The translations under genes were made by a program, and so were the position numbers. A stretch of DNA of 64,000 bases from Phycisphaerales bacterium (GTDB lineage Bacteria > Planctomycetota > Phycisphaerae > Phycisphaerales > UBA1924): contig JAJDDK010000008.1 in NCBI GenBank assembly GCA_029260345.1, forward strand, positions 1 through 64,000, read 5' to 3'. The notes below the pieces were generated by a model. That model ran no database searches. It saw only the letters and a list, made by a program, of their open reading frames with translations, and was not told the origin of the DNA. How positions within the stretch are numbered: the first letter of the stretch is position 1; every line of letters begins with the position of its first letter. Positions 5,204-56,126 of this stretch are shown here, piece by piece.

Positions 5204-5313
5204 CACCAGCCGCTCACGAAAACGACCGGCGCGACCACTACCTCCAAATACTCAATCCGCACAGCGATCTTCCTCACGATGATCGCTGTGCTGCGTTGTG
5301 CGCGTGCCGACGA

Positions 5314-5319
5314 TAGACT
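5314..5319 (+). promoter_or_regulatory. -10 box 7 nt before start (leaderless candidate)
   Basis: TAGACT ends 7 nt before the ATG at 5327, and no Shine-Dalgarno lies between. Transcription would then begin at or next to the start codon. Confidence 0.45.
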
Positions 5320-5326
5320 TCGCCCC

Positions 5327-6529
5327 ATGACTTCCATCGTCATGTTCGACGATCGTTCCGCCGCGCTGGATGTCGTCGCTGATGTGCGCGCCATCTTCGA
5401 TGTGCGCACCGGCTGCTTCACCACACGTCAGCGGCTCGAACATCACCTCGGCCGCACCACGGACGCCGTCTTCGTTCACGCAGATCTGACGCCGCTCGTC
5501 CGCGAAACTTCGACGACTCTCGTCAACGAGTGGCCGACCGGCGCTGCCGCCCTTCTCGTCAGCGGACGATGCGTTCTTCCGCCGGACGAACTCAAGAACC
5601 TCGCACAGAACACCGCCATACGCGAGAAGCACTCGGGCGAGATCATCGCCGCCCACGTGGACCGCGCCACGGCCAAGGCTTTTCTGAGTTCGAACAAACT
5701 CCCGGCCTCCATCATCGTCACCGACAGTCCGAACCCATGCCTTCTGCACCGACCGTGGGACATCATTCGCTTTCGAGACGCCGCGATTCGCGCGGACCTC
5801 GCTTCGATGACCTCGCCTGTTTCAACACTTCCAGCCGGCGTTACCGCCATTGGTGATCATCCGATCCGCGTCCACGGCGGCGCCACCATCGCCCCGAGCG
5901 TCGTGCTTGATTCCACTAATGGCGCCATAGTGATCGACGACAGCGCCACAGTCCGTCCCGGCGCCATCATCGTCGGTCCCGCGTACATCGGTCCTCACAG
6001 CGCTGTCCTCGAACACGCGCTCATCAAGGCCAACACCGCTATCGGCCCGGTGTGCAAAGTCGCGGGCGAAGTCGGCGGCACAATCTTCCAAAGTCATTCC
6101 AACAAAGGCCACGATGGCCACGTTGGCGATTCCTGGGTCGGCCAGTGGGTCAACCTCGGCGCCGGCACCACCAATTCGAACTTGCTCAATACGTATGGCG
6201 AAATCACCGCCGCAACATCGCCGAGCGCCCGCCGCGAACGAACGGGGCTGACATTCTTTGGCACGGTCTTCGGCGATCACGTCAAGACCGCGATCTGCAC
6301 GCGCCTGATGACGGGCTCGATCATTGGAACCGGCGCCATGATTGCCTCAACCGCCGCCCCGCCCACGGCCGTTCGCCGATTCGCCTGGCTTACCGACAAA
6401 GGCGAAACGCGTTTCCGCCTTGATCGATTCTTCGACGCAGCCGAGCGCATGATGGAGCGGCGCAACGCCACCATCACCCCCGCGCTGCGCGACCGACTGA
6501 CATCGCTCTTCGCGCAGGACGAGTCATGA
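5327..6529 (+). CDS. GlmU-family protein (putative sugar-1-phosphate nucleotidylyl/acyltransferase)
   Basis: A 400-residue protein beginning MTSIVMFDD. The N-terminal about 190 residues match the planctomycete/bacteroidete GlmU-like family with a reduced nucleotidyltransferase-like domain (LEHHLGRTTDAVFVHADL, the HRPWDIIR segment). From about 195 on there is a left-handed beta-helix of hexapeptide repeats (VLDSTNGAIVIDDSATVRPGAII) with the KVAGEVGGTIFQ and NLGAGTTNSNL stretches typical of the family. By homology it would act on activated amino sugars for cell-envelope precursors; the exact substrate is not evident. The start is chosen at 5327 because the family begins at MFDD and a promoter-like TAGACT sits just before it. 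It is followed 68 nt later by polA on the same strand. Confidence 0.82.
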   Translation: MTSIVMFDDRSAALDVVADVRAIFDVRTGCFTTRQRLEHHLGRTTDAVFVHADLTPLVRETSTTLVNEWPTGAAALLVSGRCVLPPDELKNLAQNTAIREKHSGEIIAAHVDRATAKAFLSSNKLPASIIVTDSPNPCLLHRPWDIIRFRDAAIRADLASMTSPVSTLPAGVTAIGDHPIRVHGGATIAPSVVLDSTNGAIVIDDSATVRPGAIIVGPAYIGPHSAVLEHALIKANTAIGPVCKVAGEVGGTIFQSHSNKGHDGHVGDSWVGQWVNLGAGTTNSNLLNTYGEITAATSPSARRERTGLTFFGTVFGDHVKTAICTRLMTGSIIGTGAMIASTAAPPTAVRRFAWLTDKGETRFRLDRFFDAAERMMERRNATITPALRDRLTSLFAQDES

Positions 6530-23606: not shown

Positions 23607-24221
23607 ATGCGGATTCGGGCCGCGCCAGCAGACCGGGGAGCTTCGCACACCGTGGATTATCGATCTGGTGAGCGGGTGGTCCATCAGGACCGACCCGAAT
23701 GGGGTGTTGGAGTTGTGCTGTCCTCCCAGCCAGGGAGTGACGCCCAGCGGTTGCGCGTCCGCTTCGAACGGGCCGGGCTGAAGACACTGTCCGTGCCCCC
23801 CGCAGCCGTCGTTCATCAGCAAATCGACCCCGCTCGAGCCGCGGCGCCAACAGATCGCCTTCAAGGCCTTTCGGACGACGAAGTCACGGAAATCATGACC
23901 GGCCTGCCCGAAGCGACCCGAGACCCCTTCGAAAGCGTCCCATCCCGCCTCGCGGCGACGCTCCGTCTTTTCCGCTTCGAATCCACCGGCGCCTCCATCA
24001 TCGACTGGGCCGCCACACAGAGCGGCCTCGCCGACCCTCTCTCCCGCTTCACCCGGCACGAACTCGAAGCCCTTTACCGGGCCTTCGAACGCCGCCGCGA
24101 CGCTCATCTGAAGCGCCTCTCGGATGACGTCCGAAATCTCTCCCCCGCCGATCTGGCCGCGGCGGTCGAAAAAGCCCCGCCCGCCGGCAAGCGCGCGTTG
24201 TCGCGCTACATCGGGCGATGA
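23607..24221 (+). CDS. DUF3553-domain protein
   Basis: A protein of about 204 residues. Near the N-terminus it has VDYRSGERVVHQDRPEWGVG, the signature of DUF3553, a small SH3-like domain also found on some helicases and transcription-associated proteins. The rest (about 90-204) is helical, with charged repeats (RHELEALYRAFERRRDAHLKRL) and no catalytic motif I recognise. Start alternatives are ATG 23607, or GTG 23652 right before the domain with GGGGAG upstream; the evidence is balanced. It is divergent from rpoZ, which hints at, but does not prove, a link to RNA polymerase or genome maintenance. Confidence 0.75.
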   Translation: MRIRAAPADRGASHTVDYRSGERVVHQDRPEWGVGVVLSSQPGSDAQRLRVRFERAGLKTLSVPPAAVVHQQIDPARAAAPTDRLQGLSDDEVTEIMTGLPEATRDPFESVPSRLAATLRLFRFESTGASIIDWAATQSGLADPLSRFTRHELEALYRAFERRRDAHLKRLSDDVRNLSPADLAAAVEKAPPAGKRALSRYIGR

Positions 24222-24439
24222 TGCTTCAGAGCAACATCCCGCACGCGCGGACCTGACGCCGGACACGCGCCTCCCGCACAAATTCACGCCAATCTGCGAT
24301 CCCGCACCGAACGCCGCGTTATTCCCGGCCCTCGCGATCACTTTGCCAATTGGCGCCACTCCGGGCGTGCGGATTGATCTCTCTCTTTTCACGCGGCTGC
24401 ACCGTCGCGAGACAAACCAAGATCAGGAGAGAGAGCCCG

Positions 24440-24721
24440 ATGAGTAACCAGGACTTCAACACTCGACTTGCCGAACTGCTCGACCAAATCGAACACCTCC
24501 CCAACGGTGAGCGTGATCGCCTTCGCGAGCTTGCTGATGAGACCCGCGAGCGCCGCGAGCGCATGAGCGAGTCGGTTTCGCAGCTTCAGGAGTCGCTCGA
24601 TTATCTGCGGCTCAGCGTCAAGTACCTCGTCTTCGATCTCGAAGCGACCCGCCGCGAGAACCAGTACCTCCGCCAGCTTCTTCGTGAGGGTCCCGACGAC
24701 GAGCGCGAAGGCGCCGACTGA
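24440..24721 (+). CDS. Small coiled-coil protein of unknown function
   Basis: A 93-residue acidic/basic mixed protein that is almost entirely predicted helix, with heptad-like spacing (LDQIEHLPNGERDRLRELADETRERRERM and on). It has no signal peptide or membrane segment. AGGAGAGAGAG stands before the ATG. It could be a structural or regulatory scaffold; I do not recognise a family. Immediately after it comes the structured RNA candidate at 24751-24888, whose T-rich end may also terminate this gene. Confidence 0.7.
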   Translation: MSNQDFNTRLAELLDQIEHLPNGERDRLRELADETRERRERMSESVSQLQESLDYLRLSVKYLVFDLEATRRENQYLRQLLREGPDDEREGAD

Positions 24722-24750
24722 CCCACGAGTTTCACACAACCCATCCCTTG

Positions 24751-24888
24751 CTTTCTCCGCACTGCCACCGGGCAGGAGGAGAAACCGTCAGGAACGCAGG
24801 CGCGGCGAAGCGTCGATCCATCCGAGAGGACAGGACGACGGCGTGACGAGGTGAATCGTCGCTTCGCCCCCTGCCGTTCCTTTTTTTT
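24751..24888 (+). ncRNA. Candidate structured ncRNA or long structured 3' UTR
   Basis: Two elements lie in a row. First, TTTCTCC/GGAGAAA encloses CTGCC-ACCG-GGCAG. Second, a long stem starts AGGAACG (24790-24796) against CGTTCCT (24875-24881), continues with CAGG/CCTG and GGCGAAGCG/CGCTTCGCC, and ends CGAT/ATCG, for 24 base pairs with small bulges. The 37-nt apical part contains a TCC-GAGA-GGA tetraloop hairpin. Eight T follow the stem, as in a terminator. The total length is far above a normal terminator. It lacks the conserved signatures I know for SRP RNA, RNase P, tmRNA or 6S RNA. It may be an independent small RNA or the processed 3' end of the coiled-coil gene. Confidence 0.55.
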
Positions 24889-24898
24889 GAAAAGCGAG

Positions 24899-24918
24899 CC
24901 GGCTCGTCCCCGAGCCGG
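24899..24918. repeat. Perfect 8-bp GC hairpin
   Basis: CCGGCTCG and CGAGCCGG are separated by TCCC. No T-run follows. It is part of a hairpin-rich intergenic stretch (24889-25206) that has no gene. Confidence 0.5.
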
Positions 24919-24997
24919 TCAACGCCCATGTGACATTGAGCGCAAACCAATCTCATCCCCCCGAGTCTGCCAACGATCAACTTGAATCAAACGTCGA

Positions 24998-25017
24998 CCG
25001 GGCCGTGGACGGCCCGG
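24998..25017. repeat. Perfect 8-bp GC hairpin
   Basis: CCGGGCCG and CGGCCCGG flank a TGGA loop. It is followed by GAGCCGG-like letters also seen in the preceding hairpin (as RC), so both may be members of one degenerate repeat family. Confidence 0.5.
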
Positions 25018-25044
25018 CTCGCTCGTATTCATCTTTTGAGATTC

Positions 25045-25087
25045 AACCGGGCGCCGTGGTTCGGCCGCTGCAAGCGGCAGTACCACG
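25045..25087 (+). repeat. Dispersed hairpin repeat, copy 1 (covaries with 56083-56126)
   Basis: AACCGGGCGCCGTGGT leads into an outer stem CGTGGT/ACCACG and an inner stem CCGCT/AGCGG with a GCA loop. The copy at 56083-56126 (opposite strand) keeps the lead and outer stem but has CCACC/GGTGG inside, so both sides of the inner stem changed together. Confidence 0.6.
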
Positions 25088-25206
25088 ATGATGCGCCCCC
25101 AAAGAAGGCTGCCCCCATCGCGCACCACTCTTGAGACTCCCGCCCCGCCTGCTAGACTCCCCCTTCCAGCGGCGACCGGGCCTCAACCAAAGCCCACGCC
25201 CACGCC

Positions 25207-25296
25207 GGAGAGATGGCCGAGTGGCTGAAGGCGCCGGTTTGCTAAACCGGTGAGTCGCGTCAAGCGGCTCCGCGGGTTCGAATCCCGCTCTCTCCG
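25207..25296 (+). tRNA. tRNA-Ser (anticodon GCT)
   Basis: A full class II cloverleaf: acceptor GGAGAGA/TCTCTCC, D arm with GGCCGAGTGGC, anticodon stem CCGGT/ACCGG around TTGCTAA (anticodon GCT at 25241-25243, reads AGC/AGT), a long variable arm TGAGTCGCGTCAAGCGGCTC typical of serine tRNAs, and T arm GCGGGTTCGAATCCCGC. CCA is not encoded. A short T5 run follows. Downstream lie lower-GC genes, but no integrase or repeated 3' end is seen. Confidence 0.97.
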
Positions 25297-25319
25297 CTTT
25301 TTGCGAAAACATTGCCCAT

Positions 25320-48199: not shown

Positions 48200-48402
48200 G
48201 ATGTGCCTTTCGCAAATGAACCAGCGGCCCCGCCGCGGATGCCGAAAACGCCCAGAACCGACGCGCGGCGGTGACCCCCACGTCCGACCAACATGGAAAC
48301 GCAAAGCAAAGAAGCGCGGCGCAATACCGCTCAATAAATCCAAGAGTGCGGCGGAATTGTGGAGGATGTCACAACACCCCGCCGCCTCGAAAGAGCGAAA
48401 AC

Positions 48403-48454
48403 TCCTTCTCCCCCTGGGAGAAGGTGGCTCGGCGCAGCCGAGACGGATGAGGGC
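48403..48454 (+). repeat. Palindromic repeat, 52-bp copy (identical to 48627-48678)
   Basis: CCTTCTCC-CCCTGG-GAGAAGG hairpin, GTGG spacer, inner hairpin CTCGGC-GCA-GCCGAG and terminal GACGGATGAGGGCC. Another copy upstream of groEL (55695-55746, minus strand) has CTCCGC-GAA-GCGGAG in the inner stem. Confidence 0.85.
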
Positions 48455-48460
48455 CAGATC

Positions 48461-48540
48461 TCCCTCTCCCCTTGGGAGAGGGTGGCGACGCGCAGCGTCG
48501 CCGGGTGAGGGCCGAATCTGTTTTCATTTTCACGCTTTTC
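48461..48540 (+). repeat. Palindromic repeat, GGGTGAGGG type, with 25-nt tail
   Basis: CCCTCTCC-CCTTGG-GAGAGGG, then inner stem GGCGACGC/GCGTCGCC and CGGGTGAGGGCCGAATC, followed by GTTTTCATTTTCACGCTTTT. The copy at 49191-49262 has the same order, including the tail. Confidence 0.8.
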
Positions 48541-48563
48541 GTCGTCCGCAAGCGCAACACTCG

Positions 48564-48618
48564 GCCCTCACCTGTCATCCCGACGAGTCGGGAAGACATC
48601 CTCTCCCAAAGGGAGAGG
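48564..48618 (-). repeat. Palindromic repeat, opposite orientation
   Basis: On the minus strand it reads CCTCTCCC...GGGAGAGG, then an inner stem TCCCGAC/GTCGGGA and GGTGAGGGC, so it is a member of the same family with a different inner stem. Confidence 0.7.
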
Positions 48619-48626
48619 AGACAAAC

Positions 48627-48678
48627 CCTTCTCCCCCTGGGAGAAGGTGGCTCGGCGCAGCCGAGACGGATGAGGGCC
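48627..48678 (+). repeat. Palindromic repeat, 52-bp copy (identical to 48403-48454)
   Basis: Same 52 bases as the copy 224 bp upstream. The identity suggests a recent duplication or gene conversion, while other copies have diverged in the inner stem. Confidence 0.85.
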
Positions 48679-48686
48679 GAATCAAT

Positions 48687-48717
48687 CCCTCTCCCTTGGG
48701 AGAGGCCAGGTGAGGGC
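48687..48717 (+). repeat. Short palindromic repeat
   Basis: CCCTCTCCCTTGGGAGAGG followed by CCAGGTGAGGG; a family member without the inner GC stem. Confidence 0.75.
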
Positions 48718-48726
48718 TGTGATCCA

Positions 48727-48893
48727 TCCCTCTCCCTTTGGGAGAGGTTAGGTGAGGGCTCTTGATCTACTCCCCCTCCAAGCCTCAAACGAAAACAGAG
48801 CCAGCAGATTCAATGGTCAACAAATAACAAGCGCCCTTTCTCGATCCCACCACACAACCATGCCCACGAAGACGTGGGCATGCCACCCGGAAC
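48727..48893 (+). repeat. Dispersed palindromic repeat, copy related to 44887-45053
   Basis: CCCTCTCC...GGAGAGGTTAGGTGAGGGCT, ATCTACTC, GCCTCAAACGAAA and later a perfect hairpin CATGCCCACG-AAGA-CGTGGGCATG. In the other copy this last hairpin reads TGCCCACT...AGTGAGCA. Confidence 0.75.
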
Positions 48894-48925
48894 CGCGCAC
48901 TTCAAAGCCGCCGCGGCGTCCAACC

Positions 48926-48999
48926 GCCCCGAAGGGGCGCAACGATTGTTGCCACGAGTGAAGCGAACCCGCAACGCGGGAGAGCGCAACTCGTGGGAA
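48926..48999 (+). repeat. Structured repeat with nested variable stem, copy 1
   Basis: GCCCC-GAA-GGGGC hairpin, then CCACGAGT (48952-48959) paired with ACTCGTGG (48989-48996) around an inner stem CCCGC-AAC-GCGGG. An inverted copy at 49114-49183 keeps the outer parts and replaces the inner stem. Confidence 0.8.
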
Positions 49000-49113
49000 G
49001 CAGTGCTTATTCAAGAAAGCCCTGAAGGGGCGCTGGAAATCTTCGCTTGAAATGTGCTCCGTCGCCCCTCTGGGGCTGGGGAATTCAAAGGAAAGAGAGA
49101 GAATTTATGTGTC

Positions 49114-49183
49114 GCTTTCCACGAGTTGCGTCCCGGCGGCCGGGACTTCACTCGTGGCAACAATCCCCCGCCCCTTCGGGGCT
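49114..49183 (-). repeat. Structured repeat with nested variable stem, copy 2 (inverted)
   Basis: On the minus strand: GCCCC-GAA-GGGGC, TTGTTGCCACGAGTGAAG, inner stem TCCCGG-CCG-CCGGGA and ACTCGTGG. The outer sequence is almost the same as in copy 1 but the inner stem is entirely different and still paired. The segment 49000-49113 between the two copies holds no gene. Confidence 0.8.
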
Positions 49184-49190
49184 CTCCCAT

Positions 49191-49262
49191 CCCTCTCCCC
49201 CTGGGAGAGGGTGGCGACGCACAGCGTCGACGGGTGAGGGTCGAATCAGTTCTCAATTTCAT
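49191..49262 (+). repeat. Palindromic repeat, GGGTGAGGG type, overlapping a gene end
   Basis: CCCTCTCC...GGAGAGGG, inner stem GGCGACGC-ACA-GCGTCGA(C), CGGGTGAGGGTCGAATC and the 25-nt tail. The tail overlaps the last codons of the gene at 49246-49671. Confidence 0.8.
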
Positions 49263-49671
49263 GCTCGGCGGCGCCGGCGTCGCACCACTCCTGCGGCATC
49301 GCCGAATTCATCGTGAACACGGCGAGTCGGTCCAGATCATGGTTGACGCCCCACGTGCCCCCGCCATTCATGAGTCGCTTGAACTCCGCCGCGACGAACC
49401 ACGACCGATCGCTCGCGATGCCGAGAAGATCAAGCGATTGGGCATTGTCGCCCGGCTGGCGCGGAAACGGAATCTCACACATCACCGCGGCGCCGCGACT
49501 GAGGAGCGCATGAGCAAAGTGCGCGGTCACATTTGCCTCGCACGGATCGCTCAGACCGCCCGGATCACTCGGCCAGTAGCTGCCGAACGAACCCCCGATC
49601 GACGCCGCGGCGTCCCGCCAGGATTCGTGAATGATTGGAGGCGGAGCGGTGACAGGAATGCGTGATGACAT
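49246..49671 (-). CDS. Protein with nuclease-like core, 3' end formed by a repeat
   Basis: A 141-residue protein without signal peptide. Residues about 50-120 contain HALLSRGAAVMCEIPFP, NAQSLDLLGIASD and FVAAEFKRL. The spaced acidic residues with E-F-K resemble the PD-(D/E)xK nuclease core, but this is a weak resemblance. The last five codons and the stop lie in a copy of the dispersed repeat whose tail also occurs elsewhere without a gene, so the original C-terminus was probably lost. It may be a degraded or truncated gene. Confidence 0.55.
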   Translation of the reverse strand: MSSRIPVTAPPPIIHESWRDAAASIGGSFGSYWPSDPGGLSDPCEANVTAHFAHALLSRGAAVMCEIPFPRQPGDNAQSLDLLGIASDRSWFVAAEFKRLMNGGGTWGVNHDLDRLAVFTMNSAMPQEWCDAGAAEHEIEN

Positions 49672-56082: not shown

Positions 56083-56126
56083 CGTGGCACTCCCACCTTT
56101 GGTGGCCGTACCACGGCGCCCGGTTG
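56083..56126 (-). repeat. Dispersed hairpin repeat, copy 2 (covaries with 25045-25087)
   Basis: On the minus strand CAACCGGGCGCCGTGGT leads into CGTGG/CCACG and an inner stem CCACC/GGTGG with AAA loop. It lies just after the groES stop. Confidence 0.6.

Follow-up and report, generated by a model that had tools for sequence, protein, structure and literature searches.

A branched, highly structured element downstream of a coiled-coil gene in a Phycisphaerales bacterium, probably a 3' UTR with its intrinsic terminator

The interval 24751-24888 of a 64,000-nucleotide stretch of DNA from a Phycisphaerales bacterium (referred to below as the window) combines a stable, branched fold with a run of eight T, and raises the question of whether it represents an RNA gene of its own or the end of a neighbouring mRNA. 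The original prediction had correctly placed it between a gene for a small coiled-coil protein of 93 aa (24440-24721, + strand) and the next gene, that of tRNA-Ser(GCT) (25207-25297, + strand). The coiled-coil protein shows no Pfam or NCBIfam family above cut-off, and its gene is the likely source of the host transcript. The stop codon of this gene is the TGA at 24719-24721; a spacer (24722-24751, + strand) follows, nearly unpaired in the fold of 24722-24888, and the structured element begins 30 nt past the stop codon.

Three components are found in the predicted fold: an upstream compound hairpin of 7 + 5 pairs with an ACCG loop (24752-24784, + strand), a large branched stem (24790-24881, + strand) and, directly 3' of the stem, the T8 tract (24881-24888, + strand), a proposed intrinsic termination site and the sole 8-T run among the T runs of at least 6 recorded on the two strands of the window. 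The GAGA loop, the preceding compound hairpin and T8 are all present where they had been described, and the same is true of the interrupted stem of 7+4+9+4 pairs, in which exactly 24 pairs close 37 nt: AGGAACG (24790-24796) with CGUUCCU (24875-24881), CAGG (24797-24800) with CCUG (24870-24873), GGCGAAGCG (24804-24812) with CGCUUCGCC (24860-24868) and, innermost, CGAU (24814-24817) with AUCG (24855-24858). The outer part of this stem is retained in the prediction, but the innermost CGAU/AUCG pairing is not, its pair probability being about 0.03; the inner four pairs are open because two hairpins are favoured instead, H1 (24812-24839, + strand; GUCG...CGAC with the GAGA loop, about 0.95) and H2 (24845-24860, + strand; GACGA GGUGAA UCGUC), with probabilities of 0.94-0.97 for the pairs of both. 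The predicted fold is thus a three-way junction, closed by the upper stem GGCGAAGC / GCUUCGCC (24804-24868) and carried on the lower stem AGGAACG-CAGG / CCUG-C-CGUUCCU. The computed energies are -51.0 kcal/mol for the three-way junction, -48.7 for the best fold keeping the originally proposed stem and -39.4 for the original fold as drawn.

This is a real and very stable structure, and its description as highly structured is borne out by comparison with dinucleotide shuffles: the predicted energy of 24751-24888 is -69.6 kcal/mol, while 200 shuffles average -48.95 +/- 4.01 (z -5.15) and none of them is as good. The big stem alone (24786-24888) gives z -4.27 and the interval extended to the stop codon (24722-24888) z -4.06, while the segment containing the upstream hairpin (24722-24789) is modestly better than its shuffles (z -1.82). 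When both strands of the stretch were scanned in 138-nt segments with a step of 40, nine of 3194 lay at least as far below their GC-expected energy as the element, all of them at 48.4-49.1 kb. The strongest folds of the window belong to a cluster of direct and inverted repeats at 48397-49278, in which a perfect inverted repeat of 20 bp occurs together with copies of 80-89 nt that bear CCTCTCCC...GGGAGAGG palindromes.

The absence of an Rfam assignment for the element at curated cut-offs, as originally expected, was upheld: the only match in the window at the gathering score was to tRNA, and a relaxed search of 24735-24900 gave three matches that scored 14-16.7 bits where 40-82 would be needed, the best of them (16.7 bits) facing a cut-off of 82. 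These matches, to microRNA, snoRNA and Caulobacter sRNA models, lie far under their cut-offs and were taken as chance. Further, Rfam returned 21 matches in 20 orthologous loci, every one of them a tRNA. ARAGORN reported a tRNA-Val(gac) at 6223-6318 (- strand), within a long ORF of the other strand (5279-6529, + strand); this call is probably false, the Rfam tRNA model giving no confirmation at its cut-off. Elsewhere in the genome, an SRP RNA match (G000:C6:270590-270688) reaches 46.2 bits, above the cut-off of 40, and a 6S-like match (G000:C5:73945-74140) reaches 36.3 bits, below the cut-off of 46.4. Since both lie on other contigs, the element need not be either RNA, and with no Rfam match to them at the site itself both identities were rejected. 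In a set of 61 genomes, 17 match the 6S model at E <= 0.001, yet just four pass its cut-off, so that the model may undercall this group.

The element is present in a single copy in its genome. A BLASTN search with the interval at E <= 0.001 recovered one of 101 genomes, its own; at E <= 10 short matches appear in all 163 genomes of the family, the best outside its own genome, among the matches listed, being 24 nt at the end of the coding gene in the genome designated G039, and among those listed the coverage of the element stays at or below about 50 nt. A single-sequence covariance model (R1), which gives the element itself 121.3 bits, found matches in five of the 163 genomes at E <= 1 under stricter filters. 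The other four (21-27 bits) lie on other contigs than the respective coiled-coil genes and were taken as chance, leaving no convincing relative in the 162 other family genomes; moreover, in 41 orthologous loci the same model gave seven weak matches, with a best E of 0.22.

The closest relative in the sample is G039 (loci L003/L032), whose coiled-coil protein is 81% identical. Its corresponding interval (GCGCG-AGCGGAG-C-CGTCGAT...ACGACGGCGTG...GGCTCCGCC) can be paired as the same closing stem and H1; by manual count, one of 11 pairs carries a compensatory change (A-U to G-C), with the other 10 unchanged. The local score of this core, 29, was reached by 15/2000, 16/2000 and 32/5000 shuffles, and L084, an unrelated locus among 129 other regions, also scores 29. 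The reverse-strand control gave higher scores, 39 for L009 (a CT-rich match past that gene's own terminator) and 35 for L061, each reached by 0/5000 shuffles. The G039 interval folds hardly better than its shuffles (z -1.50, 17/200 as good), shows no hairpin with a T-run before tRNA-Ser, and its core corresponds to a part within the big stem of the element, not upstream of it. A second model (R2), built from the element's core and that of G039, gave E < 0.02 over 45 sources only for its two training sequences. Because of the tie with L084, the higher reverse-strand scores and the weak fold of G039, the presence there of a core resembling that of the element is treated as suggestive only. The covariance across Phycisphaerae that had been put forward as a check was not found, no relative standing clearly above chance bar this possible core with its single compensatory pair of 11.

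The gene preceding the element is far better conserved: an orthologue was found in 153 of the 163 family genomes and in 94 of the 101 genomes of a mixed family and order sample. Of the loci fetched, 191 extended at least 150 nt 3' of the gene, representing 130 distinct downstream regions. A hairpin followed by at least four T occurs within 400 nt in 77 of the 130 and tRNA-Ser(GCT) within 700 nt in 52, while in 62 such a hairpin precedes any tRNA, 54-396 nt from the stop codon (median 128). The T tract of the element, at 162 nt from the stop on the same scale, falls inside this range. In the remaining 68 regions the rule applied recognised no terminator of this kind ahead of a tRNA; it does not count the imperfect T tracts seen by eye after a hairpin in some regions, for example UUGUUC. 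The frequency of terminators at a similar distance in orthologues indicates that the element is most likely the gene's tail and stop signal, and not a new RNA gene; its distance is ordinary for the terminator of this gene, and it stands out by being large and branched.

Thus, the stretch 24722-24888 is probably a structured 3' UTR of the coiled-coil mRNA, with the branched stem and T8 acting as its intrinsic (Rho-independent) terminator. Once RNA polymerase has left the coiled-coil gene, the compound hairpin, H1 and H2 would each fold while emerging; the inner three-way junction would then draw the stem halves together, and the lower stem would zip as the polymerase meets the T tract, where the transcript would be freed, ahead of the tRNA-Ser gene with its separate transcription. 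The completed hairpin might also shield the 3' end of the mRNA from exonucleases. In agreement with this model, the lower stem is stable and ends at 24881, directly at the T tract (24881-24888), at a post-gene site where 62 of 130 orthologous regions have terminators. The usual form, a single hairpin whose loop measures 3-8 nt, is lacking, a three-way junction sitting within the closing stem, and a consensus terminator scan of the + strand, limited to loops of 3-8 nt, does not list the T8 site. Counting against a terminator are also that the stem encloses far more than usual terminators do and that G039, for all its possibly similar core, shows no hairpin with a T-run before its tRNA-Ser, nor, under the rule used, do 68 of the 130 regions before a tRNA; further, the upstream hairpin would not be needed for termination. 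On this reading, the branched stem would work like a terminator. The earlier remark that the element is larger than a terminator is correct for the stem, but the position taken up by the element is that of the terminator of the coiled-coil gene.

The idea of the original prediction, a small RNA gene transcribed independently from a promoter of its own up to the T8 terminator, draws on the very stable branched fold ending in T8 and on the lack of an Rfam family at cut-off. Its promoter would need to sit within the coiled-coil gene or where that gene ends, and a scan of both strands of 24200-25130 revealed no sigma-70-like site, which is weak evidence as the scan may not suit planctomycetes; the sole site found (TTGAGA-16-TAGACT, 25131-25158; 0.2 expected) lies 5' of tRNA-Ser(GCT) and suits the tRNA. 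With a start 30 nt past a stop codon, terminators at this place in 62 of 130 orthologous regions, a single genomic copy, no convincing R1 relative in 162 genomes and none with E < 0.2 in the 41 orthologous loci, a free-standing RNA is unsupported and appears quite improbable. What remains of the earlier interpretation is therefore the high degree of structure, T8 and the lack of an Rfam assignment. A 3'-UTR-derived sRNA, cut from the coiled-coil mRNA or started within it, stable at 130-170 nt and acting on its own or other mRNAs, would be compatible with the position of the element, mRNA 3' ends with terminators being known sources of sRNAs according to a review (PMC9438474), which also describes 3'-end-derived sRNAs as making use of the mRNA terminator; sRNAs by phylum are the subject of another work (PMC9029176). 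It would also fit the structure of the regions downstream of this gene, whose first 160 nt have a mean z of -2.44 (n=130; 31.5% below -3 and 8.5% below -5) against -1.08 (16.2% and 4.6%) in controls, 130 of 140 regions 3' of other long ORFs on the same contig pieces, although this difference is a hint only given the crude ORF calling of the controls. The stretch before the terminator hairpin is mildly structured as well (mean z -1.28, n=50; six below -3), and a well-conserved two-hairpin RNA, described below, follows the same gene in six related genomes. As the upstream hairpin of the element is only modestly stable (z -1.82) and the structure controls are crude, an sRNA of this type is considered unlikely.

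Two further readings concern motifs and repeats. The interval contains three CAGGA motifs against 0.35 expected (at least three in 7/2000 shuffles), and the genome has three CsrA matches, which would be in line with an RNA titrating CsrA through these motifs; CAGGA was, however, picked after inspection, plain GGA is present five times against 3.6 +/- 1.3, the GGA bases are paired or bulged in the predicted fold with none in hairpin loops, and the G039 core has no CAGGA, all of which makes such a function extremely improbable. As to a mobile or repeat DNA palindrome, instead of an RNA element, REP-like palindromes do start about 4 nt past T8: an inverted pair at 24893-25023, with cores at 24899-24924 (- strand) and 24992-25017 (+ strand), carries CGTYGACCGGNNCGNGGACGNNCCGG on both strands and lies outside the proposed RNA. 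The palindromes have many further copies in the genome: of 49 matches to this part of the sequence, 35 are to one or other of the two arms, some of them a single site counted on each strand, and 12 are to a further dispersed hairpin at about 25041-25098. Y1_Tnp, a transposase type linked with REP sequences, has three matches in the genome. The inner ends of the palindromes, CGTC/CGTT, recall the CGTC-tagged REPs treated in PMC3733652, and the link between TnpA-REP and REP is mentioned in PMC8266576. Unlike the adjoining palindromes, the element is single-copy; it is not part of the REP-like repeat, and a reading as repeat DNA is very improbable. Next to the pair, a second dispersed hairpin repeat is found around GTGGTTCGGCCGCTGCAAGCGGCAGTACCAC (25045-25089); roughly a dozen matches to it occur across the genome, one more of them within the window at 56083-56126 (80% identity).

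Returning to the proposed structured 3' UTR with its terminator, the interval changes its sequence quickly from one relative to the next, as has been reported for bacterial 3' UTRs generally: in a review (PMC7821165), most 3' UTRs of orthologous genes are described as unconserved among Staphylococcus species, and sequence conservation as being lost around the stop codon. Other structured RNAs occupy the same place in other genomes. Genus g59 is represented in the family list by 21 genomes, and in six of these (loci L067, L080, L089, L093, L178 and L203) the coiled-coil gene is followed by a two-hairpin RNA (A3) with an invariant GGUGGGUAG loop and the second stem AAGGGAUUC.../...UCCCUUGUUC, in which four of 36 pairs are changed on both sides. 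Its model (R3), under stricter filters, recovered among 163 genomes its six training genomes and one weak match (E 0.043). The motif GGGUGGGUAGGA is present nearby in L195, L201 and L208. The downstream RNAs of L004 and L035 (80% identity over 172 nt) form a structured 3' UTR of about 190 nt, made up of a hairpin with the loop GGCUGAGGGGCC, another with GGGAUGC, and a terminator; by eye, the inner stems differ in sequence with their pairing kept. No sequence relation of either RNA to the element was seen: neither appears among its best local scores, and R3 gives the element 1.2 bits. The RNAs at this place thus seem to be exchanged even among members of one genus.

A wider proposal, rather unlikely in our estimate, would be that several lineages of Phycisphaerae maintain an elaborate RNA at a fixed site, just after the coiled-coil gene, where shape is selected and sequence quickly replaced, as in the three-way junction with its compound hairpin here, the two-hairpin RNA of six genomes and the three-hairpin RNA of two others. 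If true, the shape could serve the autoregulation of the coiled-coil gene or shield tRNA-Ser from read-through, and an RNA structure would be kept without its sequence and be missed by ordinary covariance searches. The case also advises caution, as a striking fold with a T tract, lacking relatives or transcripts, finds its simplest explanation as the end of the mRNA next to it.

Among known systems, 4.5S/SRP RNA and 6S RNA have long interrupted stems. The element shares this feature and differs from them in having no Rfam match. With the 3'-UTR-derived sRNAs reviewed in PMC9438474 it shares a location 3' of a coding gene, a terminator at the 3' end and extra upstream structure; a transcript, a processing site and a conserved seed would be the features to set such sRNAs apart. 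In the portions of the literature covered on planctomycete small RNAs with terminators and on three-way-junction terminators, none names the element, which is no proof of its being unpublished. Textbook terminators consist of a short stem with a small loop. The element departs from these in that its closing stem spans about 90 nt, holds a three-way junction and is missed by the consensus scan, and it resembles intrinsic terminators in its G+C-rich stem directly followed by T8, after a coding gene and before a separately transcribed one.
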